Shown here: positions 9,543 to 37,437 of the stretch, in pieces | Layout of the letters: each line of letters opens with the position of its first letter | Position numbering within the stretch: the first letter of the stretch is position 1 | Assembly (NCBI RefSeq): GCF_014084105.1 | Contig: NZ_CP048289.1 | Location: forward strand, 4,473,922-4,537,921 | Direction: 5' to 3' | From: Streptacidiphilus sp. P02-A3a | Lineage (GTDB): Bacteria; Actinomycetota; Actinomycetes; Streptomycetales; Streptomycetaceae | Length of the DNA stretch: 64,000 bases | Notes under the pieces: model-generated | Database searches by the model: none | The model's input: only the letters and a program-made list of their open reading frames with translations | What the model was told of the DNA's origin: nothing | Program-made: the position numbers and the translations under genes

Positions 9543-10430
9543 ATGCGCACCTTCGAGCGGGCACTGGTCCTGGGTTCCGGCGGCCCGGTCGGCACGGCCT
9601 GGATGGCGGGCCTGGCCTGCGGGCTGCGCCGCGGCGGCGTGGATCTGGGCGAGGCCGACCTGATCGTCGGCACCTCGGCCGGCGCGATCGTGGCGGCGGT
9701 GCTCGCGACCGGTCAGGACCCGGGCCGGCTGGCGGCCCCGGCGGGCGGCCCGGACGCGCGGGACCGGCCCCGGGCGGACCGGGCCACGGCGGGCCGCGTG
9801 TTCGCGGTGCTGGGGGAGCGGGGCCTGGAGCCCGGTGAGGCCAGGCGCCGCGTCGGCCGGATCGCGTTCGAGGGCGCGGACCCCCGGGCCGAGCGGGCGG
9901 TGATCGCCGCGCGCGCCGCCCTGATCGGTACCGACGCCTGGCCCCGGCGGCGGCTGCTGATCACCGCCGTGGACGCGGGCACCGGTGAGCCGGTGGTGTG
10001 GGACCGCGACAGCGGTGTGCCGCTGGCGCACGCGGTGGCGGCCAGCGGCGCCTTCCCCGGGGCCGTGCCGCCGGTCGGCATCGACGGGCGGTGGTACCTG
10101 GACGGCGCGCTGCGCTCGGGCACCAACGCGGACCTTGCGGCCGGGGCCCGCACCGTGGTCGTGGTCGAGCCGATGGCGCACCTGTTCCCGCGCGAGCCCC
10201 TTGAGCGGGAGCTGGCGGCGGCGGGGGCCGACACCGCGGTGAGCATCGGCCCGGACCCCGCCTCGGTGCGCGCCTTCGGCCCGGACCTGAACGACCTGGC
10301 GGCGTGGGAACCGGCCTACCGGGCGGGCCTGGGCCAGGCAGGCGACCTGGCCCAGGACCGTGGCGGCCCGGGGGAGCCGGGCGGGCGGCTCCGCGCCGCC
10401 TGGAGCACCGGAGCCGACGCCGACCGCTGA
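9543..10430 (+). CDS. Patatin-like phospholipase
   Basis: A 295-residue patatin-fold lipid acyl hydrolase. It has the oxyanion loop LGSGGPVGTAW at residues 10-20, the nucleophile elbow GTSAG (serine near residue 45) and the DGA dyad motif YLDGALRSGTNADLA near 185. No signal peptide, so it is probably intracellular. ATG 9543 follows a GAGGGGGG ribosome site. The adjacent divergent TetR gene suggests induction by a small ligand. Substrate unknown. Confidence 0.9.
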   Translation: MRTFERALVLGSGGPVGTAWMAGLACGLRRGGVDLGEADLIVGTSAGAIVAAVLATGQDPGRLAAPAGGPDARDRPRADRATAGRVFAVLGERGLEPGEARRRVGRIAFEGADPRAERAVIAARAALIGTDAWPRRRLLITAVDAGTGEPVVWDRDSGVPLAHAVAASGAFPGAVPPVGIDGRWYLDGALRSGTNADLAAGARTVVVVEPMAHLFPREPLERELAAAGADTAVSIGPDPASVRAFGPDLNDLAAWEPAYRAGLGQAGDLAQDRGGPGEPGGRLRAAWSTGADADR

Positions 10431-31851: not shown

Positions 31852-32733
31852 GTGACCAGCTACCTGTCGATCGGCGACTTCTCCCGCGCCACCCACATGA
31901 CCGTCAAGACCCTGCGCCACTACCACGAGGTCGGCCTGCTGGAGCCGGACGGCGTCGATCCGCGGACCGGGTACCGCCGCTACTCGGTCGACCAGATCCC
32001 CACCGCCCAGGTGGTACGCCGGTTCCGGGACCTGGGGATGCCGCTGGACCAGATCAGGACGGTGCTGGCCGCCTGCGACGTGGAGACCCGCAACCAGCAC
32101 ATCGGCGCGCACCTGCGCCGCCTGGAGGACGAACTGGGCCGCACCCAGCGCGCGGTCGCCGCGCTGCGCGACCTGCTCACCGCGCCCGCCCCCGGCGGCG
32201 GCGCGGGCATCGCGCTGCGCGACGTCGGCCCGGTGCGGGCCGCGGCGGTCACCGCGGTGGTCGACGCGCGCGACGTCGGCGCCTGGTTCCAGGGCGCCCT
32301 GGGCGAACTGTTCGCGACCGTGGCGGGCCAGGGCCTGAGGGAGAGCGGCCCGGCCGGCGGCGTGTTCGCGGACGAGGTGTTCACCCTGCACCGGGGCCAG
32401 GCCACCGTCTTCGTCCCGTGCGAGGGCCCGGTGCGGCCGCTGGGCCGGGTCGAACCGCTGCTCGTGCCGGGCGTGGAACTCGCCGTGATCGAGTACAGCG
32501 GCCCGCCGTCCGGGGCCGACCGCGCCTACGGCGCGCTGGCCACCCACGTCTCACGCCACGCGCTGGCCCTCGACGGCCCCATCCGCGAGTACTACCTGGT
32601 CGGCCAGCGGCACACCCCGGACAGCGCGCGGTGGCGCACCGAGGTCTGCTGGCCGGTCTTCCGCACCGGCCACACCGGCCACACCGGCCACACCGGCCGC
32701 ACCGGCCGCACCGGCGACGGGGAGCGGACATGA
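31852..32733 (+). CDS. MerR-family regulator with GyrI-like effector domain
   Basis: A 293-residue regulator. MerR HTH at residues 4-75 (LSIGDFSRATHMTVKTLRHY, HEVGLLEPDGVDPRTGYRRY), a coiled-coil dimerisation helix to 120, then a GyrI/SOUL-like ligand domain (FADEVFTLHRGQATVFVP, ELAVIEYSGPPSGADRAYGA). GTG 31852 is the first codon before the HTH. The C-terminus ends in a repeat TGHTGHTGHTGRTGRTG encoded by 9-bp DNA units, a low-complexity tail not seen in the family. Confidence 0.92.
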   Translation: MTSYLSIGDFSRATHMTVKTLRHYHEVGLLEPDGVDPRTGYRRYSVDQIPTAQVVRRFRDLGMPLDQIRTVLAACDVETRNQHIGAHLRRLEDELGRTQRAVAALRDLLTAPAPGGGAGIALRDVGPVRAAAVTAVVDARDVGAWFQGALGELFATVAGQGLRESGPAGGVFADEVFTLHRGQATVFVPCEGPVRPLGRVEPLLVPGVELAVIEYSGPPSGADRAYGALATHVSRHALALDGPIREYYLVGQRHTPDSARWRTEVCWPVFRTGHTGHTGHTGRTGRTGDGERT

Positions 32734-32760: not shown

Positions 32761-33177
32761 ATGTCTCATCTCGGGCTGGTGACCGTTGTCGTGCGCGACT
32801 ACGACGAGGCGATCGCGTTCTACGTGGAGCGCCTCGGCTTCGACCTGCTACAGGACACGCGGATCGACGACCGCAAACGCTGGGTGGTCGTCGGCCCGCC
32901 GGGCGCGCGGGAGGGCGGCCTGCTGCTGGCCAGGGCCGCGAACCGGCGGCAGCGGGCCGCCGTCGGCCGCCAGAGCGGCGGCCGGGTCGGCTGGTTCCTG
33001 AACACCGACACCTTCGACCGCGACTACGAGCGGATGCGGGCAGCCGGAGTCCTCTTCGAGGAGGCGCCGCGCCAGGAGCCGTACGGCACGGTCGCGGTCT
33101 TCCACGACCTGTACGGCAACCGCTGGGACCTGATCCAGCCGGCCCCGCCCCGCGAGGGGGGCGTCAGCGGGCGGTGA
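32761..33177 (+). CDS. VOC-family (glyoxalase/bleomycin-resistance-like) protein
   Basis: A 138-residue vicinal-oxygen-chelate protein with the two beta-alpha-beta-beta-beta halves visible (LGLVTVVVRDYDEAIAFYVE, RLGFDLLQDTRIDDRKRWVV; VAVFHDLYGNRWDLIQP). H3 and E-like metal ligands are partly present. Substrate unknown. Its last 13 codons lie inside the 53-bp direct repeat that bounds the downstream island. Confidence 0.88.
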   Translation: MSHLGLVTVVVRDYDEAIAFYVERLGFDLLQDTRIDDRKRWVVVGPPGAREGGLLLARAANRRQRAAVGRQSGGRVGWFLNTDTFDRDYERMRAAGVLFEEAPRQEPYGTVAVFHDLYGNRWDLIQPAPPREGGVSGR

Positions 33178-33190
33178 GGCGCGGGAGCGC
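33138..33190. repeat. Left 53-bp direct repeat (attL-like)
   Basis: Shares the core GGGGCGTCAGCGGGC and GTGAGGCGCGGGAGCGC with the right copy; four mismatches, no gaps. Overlaps the end of the VOC gene. Confidence 0.85.
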
Positions 33191-33198
33191 CGGACCGC

Positions 33199-33996
33199 TC
33201 AGAGCGTGACGCCCCGCCCTGCCGCCCACCGCCGAGCGGCGGCCGCCATGGAGTCGAACCAGGAACCCGGCTTGCGCTCGGCGAACCGCTGGTACATGCG
33301 CGTGCTCGCGGCGGCGAAGGCGTCCAGCGCCCTGGGGTCCGCACTCGTCCACGCCGGGCACCGCGCGGCCCAGGACTCGGCATCCTGGGCCTGGTGCCCG
33401 GCGGCGACCAGTTGCACCACCAGACACGCGGGGTCGATGAAGGCCGCTCCACGCGTCGGCCATGCCCAATCCACGGCCCAGGCCTGCCGATCCCCGATGA
33501 GCAGGTTGCTTTCGTTGATGTCCGTGTGCAGGAGTGCCCCGCCACGGAACAGCGTCGCCTCCGCCTGACCGGCCGCGAAGCGGTCCCATCGCGTTTCGGT
33601 CCAGTCCCGCGCCACCCGCGGCAGCGGTAGCGCACCCATGCGGTTGAGCAATGCCACGACGGCGGGAAGGTCACCGGACCCAGGGGTGAAGTCGGATGTC
33701 CTTCCCGCCACGGCCGTGAACCCGAGGACGATCCACTCATCGGATTCGGCGCACCACCGCAGGCCCGGGGAGATGGGCATCACCGCGGCATTGATCCGTC
33801 TCTCCCTGATGATGGAATCGCGGCGGCCACCGGGCCGGTTGGCGACAGCCTTCAAGAAGAACGGCCCCTTCTCGCACTCGACCAGCGCCGTGAGGTCCGA
33901 CATGAAGCCCCGCGCGGTGCGCTGAACCTCGGTCACCTCACCGGTGTGCGAGCGGATCCGGGCCCAGAACTGCGGACCGGGAAGGCTGTCACGCAT
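33199..33996 (-). CDS. APH-family phosphotransferase (aminoglycoside kinase-like)
   Basis: A 265-residue protein-kinase-fold phosphotransferase. The catalytic loop HTDINESNLL (near residue 155) supplies the Asp base, and VDWAWPTRGAAFIDPA carries the DFG-equivalent metal-binding Asp. The N-lobe lysine lies in GPFFLKAVANRPGG. These kinases phosphorylate aminoglycosides, homoserine, sugars or other small molecules. It starts nine bases after the radical SAM stop with a GGGAG ribosome site, so it is co-transcribed. It may act on the radical SAM product or confer self-protection (inference). Confidence 0.88.
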   Translation of the reverse strand: MRDSLPGPQFWARIRSHTGEVTEVQRTARGFMSDLTALVECEKGPFFLKAVANRPGGRRDSIIRERRINAAVMPISPGLRWCAESDEWIVLGFTAVAGRTSDFTPGSGDLPAVVALLNRMGALPLPRVARDWTETRWDRFAAGQAEATLFRGGALLHTDINESNLLIGDRQAWAVDWAWPTRGAAFIDPACLVVQLVAAGHQAQDAESWAARCPAWTSADPRALDAFAAASTRMYQRFAERKPGSWFDSMAAAARRWAAGRGVTL

Positions 33997-34005
33997 GCGG
34001 CTCCC

Positions 34006-34875
34006 TCAGTTCTTCGGGTTGCACTCACTCGGCGGGTAGCCCGGGTTGCACTCCTCATCGGCCGGGGCACACGCCGCGCGCCCCCGTACCGCCGCCCGAA
34101 TGGACGCCGTGGCCTGCCGCATCGCGGTGCCGTCGATGATAGAGCCGAGAGGGTCGTCCTTGACGTTGCCGACGCCGACGAACGCCGACATCACGCACGG
34201 GGACACCTTCCCGGTGGGGTCGATGGCGGTACGAGCGGCGCCGCAGTGGCCGCACAGCTCGCTCATGTCCGCGGCACGGCCCCGTGCCCCGCGCCCGAAC
34301 TCCCGCACACGGTCGACGTGGATACGGGTCACGCCGAGGGCTTCGAGGTCCGCCCGGGCAGCGCCGCCGTCGTCCGACCCGCCCACGGTGACGATCCCAA
34401 CCCGCAGCGCAATCCCCAGGCGCACGGCCCGTCCGATGTTGGCGCGGGTCCTGCCGTGGCTTGCCCGGCCGGTCACGGCGTCGTGGATCGAGACCTGGTC
34501 CGAGTAGTAGGACGTGGCCACGCAGACACCGGGGAGCGCGAACAGCGTCCAGTCGGCCTCCGTGACGCGCACCAGGTTGCTGAACACCTCGACTGCCAGG
34601 CCCAGGTGCAGCGCGTGGCCGGTGAGCTGGTGCAGGTCCGGGTGCGTCGTCGGCTCCCCGCCGATGAACTGGACGCTGGAAACGCCGTACTCGGCGGCCT
34701 GGTTCAGGACCCGCGTCCAGTCGTCGCGGGTCATGGTGCCGTGCGTGCCCGCCGGGCCGGACCCGTTGTAGCAGTGCGTGCAGGCAAGCTGGCACTTGCG
34801 CGTCAGGTCGAAGGACACCAGCCGCCTGCGCCCCCTGTCAGCCTGCGCCGGTTCGATGGTGGTAGTCACCGTCAC
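34006..34875 (-). CDS. Radical SAM/SPASM-type enzyme
   Basis: A 289-residue radical SAM protein. The cluster motif CQLACTHC (CxxxCxxC) is near residue 28, the GGE motif in VQFIGGEPTTHPDL near 70. A short SPASM/twitch-like C-terminus has CGHCGAARTAIDPTGKVSPC and further cysteines (CAPADEECNPGYPPSEC) for auxiliary clusters. Such enzymes mature peptides (RiPPs) or act on small molecules. GTG 34875 or the in-frame GTG 34869 could start it; GGAAGGG is better spaced for the latter. It sits between an XRE regulator and an APH-like kinase within a repeat-bounded island. Substrate unknown. Confidence 0.9.
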   Translation of the reverse strand: MTVTTTIEPAQADRGRRRLVSFDLTRKCQLACTHCYNGSGPAGTHGTMTRDDWTRVLNQAAEYGVSSVQFIGGEPTTHPDLHQLTGHALHLGLAVEVFSNLVRVTEADWTLFALPGVCVATSYYSDQVSIHDAVTGRASHGRTRANIGRAVRLGIALRVGIVTVGGSDDGGAARADLEALGVTRIHVDRVREFGRGARGRAADMSELCGHCGAARTAIDPTGKVSPCVMSAFVGVGNVKDDPLGSIIDGTAMRQATASIRAAVRGRAACAPADEECNPGYPPSECNPKN

Positions 34876-34949
34876 TGCCCTTCCGGTCGGTGCAGTACCA
34901 CCGGCCCGAAGGGGCCGGCAGGACAGCCGACCGACCAGGGCGCGCGCAC
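34872..34949 (-). CDS. Possible 25-residue peptide overlapping the radical SAM start
   Basis: An open frame from GTG 34949 encodes MRAPWSVGCPAGPFGPVVLH plus RPEGQ and stops at a TGA overlapping the radical SAM GTG (GTGA). Its coupling to a radical SAM gene is suggestive of a precursor or leader peptide. However, a GGGA sits directly against the GTG without proper spacing, and a GC-rich frame of this size can be accidental. Confidence 0.25.
   Translation of the reverse strand: MRAPWSVGCPAGPFGPVVLHRPEGQ
34901..34918. promoter_or_regulatory. Hairpin upstream of the radical SAM gene
   Basis: CCGGCCC-GAAG-GGGCCGG, a perfect 7-bp stem 26 bases upstream of GTG 34875. A second hairpin (CGACCGTCG 34980-34988 / CGACGGTCG 35000-35008) lies further up, just past the XRE stop. 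Together they could terminate or attenuate between XRE and the radical SAM gene. Confidence 0.55.
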
Positions 34950-35049
34950 TCCCGCGCTGCCGCGACGCCGGATGCCGCTCGACCGTCGAAACGATGATCC
35001 GACGGTCGGCAGGGAGCCGACCAGTCTTATTCCCGTTGTGGACTAAAGA

Positions 35050-35880
35050 TCACCGGAAGAGCTGCGCCCACAGCCCGAGATGGTTCCGTGCGTCATCCCC
35101 CCACGAGGCGTGCCGCTCATAGGAAGAGAATTCATCCAGATAGCTTTCGGTGTCCCTGGGGTCCTTGAAGACCATGACCCCGGTGGACGTTTCCACGGTG
35201 GCCATTCTCCGGTCGTATACCGTGAACACATTCACTGGAGCCAGCGGCATGTGTCCGGCCAGGGGGAGCACACCGAGGCGCACGCCGGGAAGGCGGCTGA
35301 CGGACACGAGCCGATCAATCTGCATGGCCATGGCCGGGAGGGGGAGCAGCGGCCATCTCACAGCCTGTTCGGTCAGCAGGAATATAAATTCCTTCGAGGT
35401 GTCGTAGAGGATCGACTGCCTGTCCAGCTTTCGCGCGATTGCTTTCGCATGATCACCGGGAACGCCGGCCAGCGTGGCCCGGATGTACTCCGGTGTCGAC
35501 AGCAGAGAGGTGATCATCGTGGGGAGGAAGAATCGGAGCTCCGCGGACGACCGCTCCAGGTGCGCCAGCTCATTCTGCTTCTTCTCCAGCCCCTTGCGTC
35601 GCATGGAGCGAAAGTCCTGCCACTCCGTGTTCGCGATACGAGCGAGCGCACTGACCTCGGCTGCGAGGGAGGGTGGGGCATCGAGAGCCCGCAGGATGCG
35701 CTCGACGTCAACCAGGGTCGGGACTGTTCTGCCGGTCTCGATCTTTGAGATCTTGGGCTGAGACATATTGCAACGTTCGGCGAGGCGAGCCCCTGACAGC
35801 CCGGCTCGCCGGCGAAGCTCCTTCAGAATTTCAGCAAGGTCAGCCTGGGACTGGCCGAGCTGCTCCGGGTCGAGCGTCAC
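35050..35880 (-). CDS. XRE-family regulator with DUF5753 domain
   Basis: A 276-residue regulator. HTH at residues 16-70 (LKELRRRAGLSGARLAERCN, MSQPKISKIETGRTVPTL). The C-terminal DUF5753 domain is divergent but recognisable (FFLPTMITSLLSTPEYIRAT, RLGVLPLAGHMPLAPVNVF). GTG start overlaps the stop of the DUF6879 gene (GTGA), so the two are translationally coupled. It probably controls the cassette. Confidence 0.88.
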   Translation of the reverse strand: MTLDPEQLGQSQADLAEILKELRRRAGLSGARLAERCNMSQPKISKIETGRTVPTLVDVERILRALDAPPSLAAEVSALARIANTEWQDFRSMRRKGLEKKQNELAHLERSSAELRFFLPTMITSLLSTPEYIRATLAGVPGDHAKAIARKLDRQSILYDTSKEFIFLLTEQAVRWPLLPLPAMAMQIDRLVSVSRLPGVRLGVLPLAGHMPLAPVNVFTVYDRRMATVETSTGVMVFKDPRDTESYLDEFSSYERHASWGDDARNHLGLWAQLFR

Positions 35881-36389
35881 CCGGTCACGTACTCCTGAAA
35901 TGGAACCGACTCGGCGACGGCGATTCGCTGGGCCTCAAGATAGGGATCGATCACTCCCTCGTGAAGAACCCGGTTGATCTGCCTTCCGTCGGGCTCGTAG
36001 TTCATGAGAACGACGGTCGAGCGGTCGAAGAACCAAAAGTCCTGAAATCCTTCGAGCGGGTTCGGCCGGTGTGTCACATCCAGGATTCGGATTTCCTCTC
36101 CCGCGTCTGCGCCGTGCCGGTAGTACCGCGAGAACTCAAAGCGAAGGTAGTCGCTCAGCGGACGCGTGACGACGTGGACCCTGCCCGTGATCCGCCCTTC
36201 TGCCCTGTGTCGGCGGATCTGGGACGTCCAGGCGTCCTCGGCCGCGTGGACCAGTGCTTCCCCGTTCTTGAAACGGGAGAACTCGTCGGCTTCCTGCGGT
36301 ACCAGGTACTGGGGCAGCGTTTCCAGCCGCCACGCCTCCTTGGTGAATTCTCGGAATTTTGCTTGCCATTCCTCACCATCCAAGAGCAC
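35877..36389 (-). CDS. DUF6879-family protein
   Basis: A 170-residue protein matching the pattern of DUF6879 proteins that accompany XRE regulators in Streptomyces. Landmarks are LDGEEWQAKFREFTKEAWRL, YLVPQEADEFSRFKNGE, DYLRFEFSRYYRHGADAGEE and FWFFDRSTVVLMNYEPDG. Start GTG 36389 has GGGAGG seven bases upstream and overlaps the preceding small gene by 17 bases. The WxxF and aromatic motifs suggest a compact alpha+beta domain. Function unknown. Confidence 0.75.
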   Translation of the reverse strand: MLLDGEEWQAKFREFTKEAWRLETLPQYLVPQEADEFSRFKNGEALVHAAEDAWTSQIRRHRAEGRITGRVHVVTRPLSDYLRFEFSRYYRHGADAGEEIRILDVTHRPNPLEGFQDFWFFDRSTVVLMNYEPDGRQINRVLHEGVIDPYLEAQRIAVAESVPFQEYVTG

Positions 36390-36588
36390 GGAACGCCTCC
36401 CGCAGCACCGCTTCCGGGATCTCCACAAGCCCTTCGCCCTCCGGCGGCTGGAAGCCGGTGAAGTGCTCGCCCTGGAAGACGAACGACCTGCGATCCGTGG
36501 CGTAGACGTTCGGGCAGTCACCCTGCCCGCACTCGCCGGAGCCGTCCCCGCTGCCGGTGAGACGCGTAAGAGCGGTCTTCTCTGCCAT
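36373..36588 (-). CDS. Small CPxVYATDR protein of the XRE/DUF6879 locus
   Basis: A 71-residue protein starting MAEKTALTRLTGSGDGSGE, with the motif CGQGDCPNVYATDRRSFVFQ. This is typical of small proteins encoded just upstream of DUF6879 genes. AGGGGG precedes ATG 36588. Two cysteines, a GDCPNVY turn and an acidic C-terminus (GLVEIPEAVLREAFRALGW) are the only features. It is first in the cassette operon. It could be an effector, an antitoxin-like partner, or the substrate of the radical SAM enzyme. Confidence 0.75.
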   Translation of the reverse strand: MAEKTALTRLTGSGDGSGECGQGDCPNVYATDRRSFVFQGEHFTGFQPPEGEGLVEIPEAVLREAFRALGW

Positions 36589-36733
36589 GTCCAACCCCCT
36601 TGGCCGGCCGGGGACTTCCCGGCCACGCGGACGACGCTACGGACGGTGCGGCGGTGCGTCCATGCCGAAACGCGGATATTCCCGTCCTCGAATAGTCGAT
36701 CACGAGAGAAGGCCGAAAGCCCCCGCCGGGGCC

Positions 36734-36786
36734 GCCGACCCCGCGCCGCGACGGGGGCGTCAGCGGGCCGTGAGGCGCGGGAGCGC
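36734..36786. repeat. Right 53-bp direct repeat (attR-like)
   Basis: Matches the left copy at 49 of 53 positions. Overlaps the 3' end of the quinone-reductase gene. The bases 36589-36733 between the cassette's first gene and this repeat hold an AT-richer pocket (GGATATTCCCG, CGAATAGTCG) that is the likely cassette promoter. Confidence 0.85.
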
Positions 36787-37437
36787 TGCGGCGAGGGTGA
36801 CGCGGTGCCTGACCGCCGCCAGGGCCTGGGCCCGTTCCTGGTCGCTCAGGTGGGCCGGGCCGTAGGTGACCACCGGTTCCAGAGGCCGGTAGCCGACGAA
36901 CTCGAACATGCCGCGGTGGATGTGGAACAGGAAGTCGTGCAGCGACCCGAGGGCGCCGCCGGGCTGGAACGACTCCCGGGAGCCGCCGGTGGTCAGCAGC
37001 AGCATCGCCCGCCTGCCGCTGAGCGCGGCCTGCTCGAAGATGCCGTGGTCGCCGCCGAAGGCCGCGCCCATCACGAAGACCTGGTCCACCCAGCCCTTGA
37101 GGATGGCGGGCACCGAGAACCACCACAGCGGGAACGAGAAGACGAGCAGGTCGGCGGCGAGCACCCGGTCGAGGTGGTCCTGGACGCGGGGGTCCAGCGT
37201 CTCCTCACGGACCGCGCGCAACTGCTCGGCCTGGGGCTTGAAGTAGCCCTCGGCCGCGAAGCCGTCGCGGTCCAGCACCGGGGACCACCCCTCGGCGTAC
37301 AGGTCCAGCACGTCGACCGCGTACCCGGCCTCGCGCAGCGCCCGCGCCGCGGTGGACATCTGGGCGGTGCTGAACGAGCCTGGCTCGGGGTGGGCGTGGA
37401 CGATCAGCGCGGTGCGCGCGTCATCGGGCTTCGACAT
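36760..37437 (-). CDS. NAD(P)H:quinone oxidoreductase, flavodoxin-like fold
   Basis: A 225-residue FMN/FAD-dependent quinone reductase of the KefF/NQO1 group. It has ALIVHAHPEPGSFSTAQM at the N-terminus, LLVFSFPLWWFSVPAILKGW and the TTGGSRESFQPGG active-site loop near 155. It should reduce quinones by two electrons to avoid radical formation. It follows an ArsR gene on the same strand by 48 bases. The gap holds ATCATATCGACATATCCCGA, similar to sequence upstream of the ArsR gene, so the pair is likely auto-controlled. Confidence 0.92.
   Translation of the reverse strand: MSKPDDARTALIVHAHPEPGSFSTAQMSTAARALREAGYAVDVLDLYAEGWSPVLDRDGFAAEGYFKPQAEQLRAVREETLDPRVQDHLDRVLAADLLVFSFPLWWFSVPAILKGWVDQVFVMGAAFGGDHGIFEQAALSGRRAMLLLTTGGSRESFQPGGALGSLHDFLFHIHRGMFEFVGYRPLEPVVTYGPAHLSDQERAQALAAVRHRVTLAAALPRLTAR

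Follow-up and report, generated by a model that had tools for sequence, protein, structure and literature searches.

What does the radical SAM enzyme of a small bacterial gene cassette act on, and how did that cassette come to lie between two copies of a neighboring gene's 3' end? Both questions are raised by a locus in Streptacidiphilus sp. P02-A3a (contig NZ_CP048289.1, positions 4,473,922 to 4,537,921 of the forward strand). We refer to this 64,000-nucleotide stretch as the window, and coordinates given without a locus name are positions in it. Our analysis indicates that the cassette is likely to be a mobile module for a ribosomally synthesized and posttranslationally modified peptide (RiPP), whose precursor is predicted to be fused to the C terminus of its own radical SAM/SPASM maturase. 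Three features are central to this reading:

34006..34875, minus strand: radical SAM/SPASM enzyme of 289 aa (Pfam), with C28xxxC32xxC35 and the SPASM cysteines C208xxC211...C227; closest solved fold, SkfB
34009..34080, minus strand: CxP tail, the proposed fused core peptide (codons 266-289), ending in CAPADEECNPGYPPSECNPKN, with Cys269, Cys276, Cys285 and Ser283; predicted to be disordered
33199..33996, minus strand: APH-like kinase of 265 aa, with K49, D159, N164 and W177 invariant in 25 aligned sequences

The C-terminal tail and the gene downstream

A homologue search with the radical SAM protein retrieved 30 loci from genome contigs, 27 of them actinobacterial and the other three weak matches. 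With the window's own genome counted, 60 of 394 genomes of its family, the Streptomycetaceae, and 31 of 394 sampled from its class had matches at E<=1e-55, and 4 of the 14 genomes of its genus had matches at E<=1e-30. Our neighbor survey covered 92 loci, which left 87 distinct actinomycete loci once five duplicates were dropped. Directly downstream of the enzyme, 31 of these carry an APH-like kinase, 37 a methyltransferase resembling protein isoaspartate methyltransferase (PIMT), 2 a kinase followed by a PIMT-like gene, and 17 neither, some of the last being broken or cut by a contig end. In most enzyme-partner pairs the genes overlap or lie some tens of bases apart, and XRE-DUF5753 or NsdA-type regulators are frequent neighbors of the enzyme.

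The initial annotation had treated all five genes of the cassette as a unit, a view that we reject. Among the other 91 radical SAM loci, some of them so short that a small protein can be missed, none had a homologue of the mini-protein and three had DUF6879, a multicopy family with 13 above-cut-off matches in the window's own genome (two being images of the cassette copy). Since the two genes are rarely found beside the enzyme, the five-gene set is local and the enzyme-partner pair is the family trait. Judged by its neighborhoods, the conserved unit is the radical SAM/SPASM enzyme with its downstream partner, and DUF6879 is either a passenger or part of a regulatory module.

Beyond the SPASM part the enzymes of this family carry a C-terminal tail, which we could call in 83 of the 87 loci, the others being L051, L078, L079 and L172. 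In these tails, 345 of 358 cysteines are followed by x-Pro (CxP). The called length was 0 in L072 (whose tail does hold DGC), L152, L178 and L191, and copies L051, L065, L070, L078, L079, L082, L184 and L191 are broken, truncated or cut by a contig end; in intact enzymes, the tail measures 24 to 61 residues in the kinase class and 26 to 103 in the PIMT class. Some tails hold tandem units, by eye three in L186 and L168 and two in L159 and L181. AlphaFold2 models of the window's enzyme and of the two-core enzyme of L159 have a predicted local distance difference test score (pLDDT) mostly above 90 in the body, low values in the first ten or so residues and values below 50 in the tail, from about residues 268 and 265, respectively.

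The form of the tail goes with the gene downstream. The end PGx[PL]..[ST]..CxP, of which CAPADEECNPGYPPSECNPKN is the window's version, is found in 27 of 30 kinase-linked tails and in both tails with both partners; the three exceptions among the kinase-linked tails are those of L049, of L065, which is truncated, and of L070, whose frame is broken. None of 35 PIMT-linked tails has this end, and 32 of them carry D[GS]..C (all but L170, L176 and the zero-length L072), a typical version being GGCPPNDSNDCSPANTPACNPAY. A check set of 26 later loci came entirely from outside the window's family, its members being not all independent, as the tails of L251 and L074 are the same. There the predicted tail end was present at all four kinase-linked loci, and the 16 PIMT-linked tails comprised nine with D-G/S, five with D-T, two broken ones and none of the kinase type; six loci had neither partner.

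A 77-row tree built from the enzyme bodies gathers the kinase-linked enzymes into a single group of 30 members (support of 97/59 at the fork and 100/93 for 29 of them), of which 28 have the kinase and 2 have both partners. Three PIMT-linked enzymes from other families lie near the base of this group, on long branches and with unsure placement. A third class, linked to neither kinase nor PIMT, comprises 12 rows that group together. Its tail is nearly invariant, CTPPQFLPMCGPCGPCVPSVGHCDP, in L164, L166, L171, L175, L179, L180, L182, L184, L185 and L187, and in 7 of its 12 loci a conserved open reading frame (ORF) of 115 to 121 aa follows directly downstream (157 aa with an upstream start in L180). 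The window's genome, G000, also holds a second family member, L049 (G000:C1:1619254-1620108), whose kinase is divergent and whose tail, CSPNDTSCAPDAYPCYPSNE, is atypical; a PIMT-like gene lies about 2.8 kb upstream of it.

Both kinds of partner are distant relatives of known families. The residues K49, D159 and N164 of [HY]xDxxxxN and W177 of DW are invariant in the 25 aligned kinases, and we take them to be the ATP-site lysine and the catalytic [HY]xDxxxxN and DW motifs. Only 5 of the 25 match the APH model PF01636 at E<=0.01, and the window's protein, with no match by the family cut-off, is not among them, so that these partners read as a divergent APH group. All three PIMT partners tested match TIGR04188, the methyltransferase of ATP-grasp peptide maturase systems, at E values of 3e-80 to 2e-85, and their 270 to 287 bits fall below its curated cut-off of 380, as would befit relatives rather than members. 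RiPP PIMTs target an Asp that often precedes Gly (PMC13001092), and the APH-like CaoK of class V lanthipeptides phosphorylates Ser/Thr of its precursor (PMC9486802). By analogy, the window's kinase would most naturally target the conserved Ser/Thr that stands two residues ahead of the last Cys.

The enzyme body itself resembles peptide maturases. Its Pfam matches are Radical_SAM and SPASM, both above cut-off, and Fer4_12, and C28, C32, C35, C208, C211 and C227 are invariant in 74 sequences. SkfB, then SuiB, are the nearest solved folds, and SkfB, then PqqE, then the non-peptide nucleoside enzyme BlsE the nearest profile matches. The model comprises 289 residues, against 383 to 440 in the SkfB and SuiB structures, a difference that presumably includes their leader-binding domain. 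SkfB is a sactipeptide maturase acting on a separate precursor.

Because the tail is built of CxP units, variable, predicted to be disordered, sometimes tandem and matched to the downstream tailoring enzyme, we read it as a RiPP core. In this scenario, the enzyme would abstract hydrogen atoms from the tail and use its three cysteines to form thioether or similar bonds, as SkfB does on its precursor. Since the substrate would be tethered to the enzyme, a separate leader-binding domain (RiPP recognition element, or RRE) would not be needed. The APH-like kinase would phosphorylate the conserved Ser/Thr, here Ser283, as LanK does in class V lanthipeptides; at the sister loci, a graspetide-like PIMT would instead convert the Asp of D-G/S. 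The XRE-type regulator may control the unit. The anatomy of the tail, its tandem units and its link with the partner are read directly from sequence; its cross-linking, the phosphorylation of Ser283, and the release and role of a product are predicted.

The repeat pair and probable insertion at gene 3' ends

The cassette, its bracketing repeats and the genes beyond them comprise the following further features:

33138..33190, no strand: left 53-bp direct repeat, the distal copy of the 3' end of the quinone reductase (QR) gene, within which the VOC gene also has its last codons and stop
36734..36786, no strand: right 53-bp direct repeat, the intact QR gene 3' end plus 26 bp downstream
36760..37437, minus strand: Flavodoxin_2 QR, the inferred target gene, upstream of the cassette and codirectional with it
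32761..33177, plus strand: VOC/glyoxalase-fold protein, beyond the far side of the cassette
35050..35880, minus strand: XRE-DUF5753 regulator (Pfam), a frequent neighbor type of this enzyme family
35877..36407, minus strand: DUF6879 protein (Pfam), multicopy in its own genome
36373..36594, minus strand: mini-protein of 73 aa with CGQGDCPNVYATDR, without a family match and not found with the enzyme elsewhere

The repeat copies, spaced by 3596 bp, agree at 49 of 53 positions (92%) without gaps, and their edges are sharp, as only 23% and 32% of the 60 bp on either side are identical. A control scan of 386 kb of the same genome, for direct repeats no shorter than 30 bp, 90% identical or more and lying 1.5 to 9 kb apart, found 13 pairs including this one. 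In nine of the remaining 12, one flank or both reach 50% identity or more, and the three other rows are about equally sharp-edged, two of them being adjacent pieces of one repeat. GC is 67.3% between the repeats and 75.9% and 72.8% in the two adjoining 3-kb flanks. Each copy holds the QR stop codon and a VOC-frame stop, and among nine VOC homologues of 128 to 140 aa (138 aa in the window) conservation stops at about the start of the repeat. Pfam recognized no integrase among the five cassette genes: the mini-protein had no match at all, and the APH-like protein had none above cut-off and a single sub-threshold one, scoring 16.7 bits where 27 are required, to a 'recombinase-like HTH' model. The initial annotation was therefore right about the repeats, the five minus-strand genes between them, their lower GC, the convergent VOC and QR 3' ends in both copies and the lack of a recognizable integrase; of the two proteins for which it proposed a family search, DUF6879 could be placed and the mini-protein could not. 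Its misgiving that the repeat might be a dispersed intergenic element can be laid aside, as a genome search with the 53 bp returned both copies, their two images in an inverted duplication and one partial match of 29 bp.

It had also taken the repeats for attL/attR-like marks of an integration, and homologous cassettes elsewhere support this with gene-3'-end repeats of their own. The repeat derives from the end of rho in L048 (genome G001; 71 bp, 97%) and from that of an acyl-CoA dehydrogenase gene in L059 (S. rugosispiralis; 64 bp, 100%, with a third copy of 85% in the middle), the targets being what we take these genes to be from their sequences. L081 (S. niphimycinicus) is likewise flanked by a repeated acyl-CoA dehydrogenase gene end, of 40 bp at 95%, and L149 (genome G030) by the repeated 3' end of a third gene, of 44 bp at 98% or, with a single gap allowed, 76 columns at 88%. 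In all four, as in the window, the target gene lies upstream of the cassette and codirectional with it. For G030 there is an empty site, seen in its congeners G064 and G014: there the target gene is followed by 1.2 and 2.2 kb, respectively, of poor alignment and then by a block that lies 1.3 kb past the second repeat in G030, the gene end occurs once, and nothing in between matches the cassette genes. At the rho site, rho-like copies are present in all 14 genomes of the genus, and none of the 19 loci compared has the right-hand flank beside rho, so that this site yielded no empty counterpart. What recurs with its own repeats is the pair of radical SAM and APH-like genes. No integrase was recognized among the ORFs picked in the L149, L059 and L048 cassettes.

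Insertion at the QR 3' end would have restored the QR gene and left its old 3' end, the distal 53-bp copy, beyond the kinase gene. The cassette would have been moved by an enzyme that it does not encode; we infer such a recombinase and a mode of transfer. A fuller version of our reading takes the radical SAM maturase to be its own precursor. Its CxP core, single or tandem, would be cross-linked in cis and finished by an interchangeable neighbor (the kinase, the PIMT or the third partner of 115 to 121 aa), and the kinase branch would travel as integrase-less, stackable cassettes inserting at gene 3' ends. We regard the chances of this version as evenly balanced.

Several repeats at other loci deserve separate mention. 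Between two of its gene-end copies L059 has only the enzyme and the kinase as recognized genes. The region L059:7704-14149 holds three acyl-CoA dehydrogenase 3' ends and seemingly two stacked cassettes; enzyme and kinase alone make up the first, and in the second are genes for a regulator of the NsdA type and a protein of 189 aa, together with a protein kinase-like gene. We did not read as gene-end scars the repeats that a gapped search gave for L138 (inside the kinase gene), L191 (inside a gene), L072, L075 and L076 (many copies), or L177, L069, L050, L180, L068 and L056/L057. The L056/L057 repeats are of a gene start rather than a gene end: the start of an NsdA-type regulator gene is duplicated beyond the enzyme-kinase pair at L056:7607-7810 and 9888-10091 (204 bp, 95%) and at L057:7704-7808 and 9790-9894 (105 bp, 90%). 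In L068 (Nocardiopsis sp. N85), a 26-bp sequence that we read as CRISPR-repeat-like lies just upstream of the radical SAM gene (L068:7782-7807) and has three more copies, spaced at 61-bp intervals, some 5 kb downstream (L068:13578-13725).

The whole window, 1-64000, is contained in a giant inverted duplication, G000:C1:4464141-4740000 against 5024512-4748803, traced nearly to its center near 4.744 Mb. Its 276,097 aligned columns are 99.76% identical, with 32 mismatches and 624 gap positions, so that indels far outnumber mismatches, and the cassette with its flanks is the same in both arms (4249/4249). It may be either a real palindrome or an assembly artefact. Near the cassette, at 32661-32718, a nine-base tandem repeat, CACACCGGC/CGCACCGGC, lies at the end of a MerR-like gene.

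Points against the reading and rival explanations

Several observations weigh against a fused core in a mobile cassette. The reading as a whole rests on sequence, with product and modification predicted only. Five of the 30 kinase-linked tails also carry D[GS]..C, D-T takes the place of D-G/S in 5 of the 16 PIMT-linked tails of the check set, and the paralogue L049 has a kinase and lacks the PGxP..S end. Strong as it is by count of loci, the link between tail and partner has few independent events behind it, since the kinase-linked enzymes form one group and the partner has accordingly changed few times. No protease or transporter was recognized in the conserved neighbor clusters, where no systematic search for them was made. 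As for the insertion, the undivided VOC-QR site that the initial annotation expected in relatives did not appear: none of 13 VOC-match loci has QR within 1.5 kb on either side, and none of 18 QR homologues from 18 other genomes has a VOC match within about 1.5 kb, most having an ArsR-like neighbor instead. Finally, the raw frequency of flanking repeats is not above background: 9 of the 87 loci have them, as do 39 of 400 positions picked at random in the window's genome, at least one of the 39 being this cassette. Because these counts are unenriched, the insertion claim rests on the sharp edges, the gene-3'-end identity and the empty site of the G030 relatives.

The missing VOC-QR site and the background-level counts would also suit the idea that the 53-bp repeat is not an insertion scar and arose when a convergent gene end was duplicated by gene conversion or by chance. 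We nevertheless think this rather improbable, given the sharp edges, the lower GC inside and the parallel gene-3'-end repeats around homologous cassettes, one of them with an empty site. A further argument against the fused core comes from the tail itself, in which Cys285 is invariant and Cys269 and Cys276 are nearly so among 74 aligned enzymes, as cluster ligands would be. SPASM enzymes normally carry further cysteines beyond the third SPASM Cys, and the tail cysteines might be structural, completing the ligands of the SPASM auxiliary iron-sulfur cluster, and the enzyme would then act on a separate substrate, whether a peptide, a protein or a small molecule. This is unlikely in our view, as intact tails hold anywhere from 2 to 10 cysteines, with the three-Cys unit repeated two- or threefold in L159, L168, L181 and L186; the tail stays below a pLDDT of 50 in both models; and ligands would not need the tail type to follow the downstream enzyme.

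If the substrate were a separate protein, the 73-aa CPNVY mini-protein, which has two cysteines in ECGQGDCP and stands in the same operon-like row, or the DUF6879 protein could be what the enzyme and kinase modify. The absence of mini-protein homologues from the other 91 radical SAM loci and the gene content of L059, where only enzyme and kinase are recognized between gene-end copies, make this very unlikely. Finally, the initial annotation had wavered between a modification or defense system and a RiPP-like pathway; the latter is the reading that we favor, and defense we reject. A defense or resistance module, with viperin-like nucleotide chemistry or an aminoglycoside-type kinase, could appeal to the PADLOC pVip models, which match the enzyme at E 4e-12, to the weak APH-family similarity of the kinase homologues and to BlsE as third-best profile match. 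That pVip level is, however, common to many radical SAM families, SkfB, SuiB and PqqE rank above viperins, the enzyme has a SPASM domain, no PADLOC model matches the kinase, DUF6879 or the mini-protein, and the XRE protein matches HTH-type regulator models only. Such a module is very improbable.

Relation to known systems and implications

The fused core peptide predicted here has its closest precedent in the borosins, RiPPs whose core is part of the enzyme that modifies it (PMC8429565). The likeness to the fused borosins (OphMA type; types I to III) lies in a precursor core on the enzyme chain, in our case a putative core in a single ORF. They differ in the chemistry, as borosins use an alpha-N-methyltransferase, a domain absent from the Pfam matches of our enzyme. 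To our knowledge, no borosin has a kinase or PIMT partner. We conclude from sequence comparison that the proposed core would be the radical SAM counterpart of the fused borosins. With SkfB and other radical SAM/SPASM peptide maturases the enzyme shares the catalytic fold, SkfB being its nearest solved relative by both profile and fold; SkfB is longer and has a separate precursor, whereas the cassette enzyme has 289 aa and the CxP tail. A search of open PMC papers turned up none describing a radical SAM enzyme in one chain with its precursor; PMC8939145 mentions separate SPASM enzymes beside ATP-grasp loci of graspetides.

Other likenesses concern the partners. Imiditides (graspimiditides and lanthimiditides) share with the PIMT branch a PIMT homologue and a core Asp, often before Gly (PMC13001092), but their class-defining enzymes are of the ATP-grasp, Lan or lasso type rather than radical SAM. 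Class V lanthipeptides resemble the kinase branch in having an APH-like kinase (CaoK/LxmK; PMC9486802), one that acts on precursor Ser/Thr as we predict for the window's kinase; their loci have a HopA1-like lyase, and none was recognized in the cassette. In its presumed movement the cassette recalls integrative elements such as actinomycete integrative and conjugative elements (AICEs), which insert at gene 3' ends, create direct repeats and restore the gene. It and its homologues differ from them in their size of 2 to 6.5 kb, in having no recognized integrase or transfer gene and in target genes that vary by locus. The insertion pattern also raises the question of what moves cassettes of 2 to 6 kb without a recognizable integrase.

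A 2023 survey of RiPP-type PIMTs reported 249 clusters pairing a radical SAM enzyme with a PAMT in which no neighboring precursor or substrate gene was found (PMC10787088). In these orphan pairs, as in the family studied here, a PIMT/PAMT gene accompanies the radical SAM gene and no nearby gene for a precursor was found, except that the window's branch has the kinase in place of the methyltransferase. Matched by description, they are probably the PIMT branch of this family, and the tail their missing substrate.

Radical SAM RiPPs are usually found through a small precursor gene beside the enzyme. A maturase carrying its own core would escape such searches, which would explain the 249 pairs without a substrate; if our reading is true, the tail would supply that substrate for hundreds of similar gene pairs. 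As the family is common in Streptomycetaceae and occurs across the class, it may give access to a new set of peptides bearing cross-links, phosphates or aspartimides.

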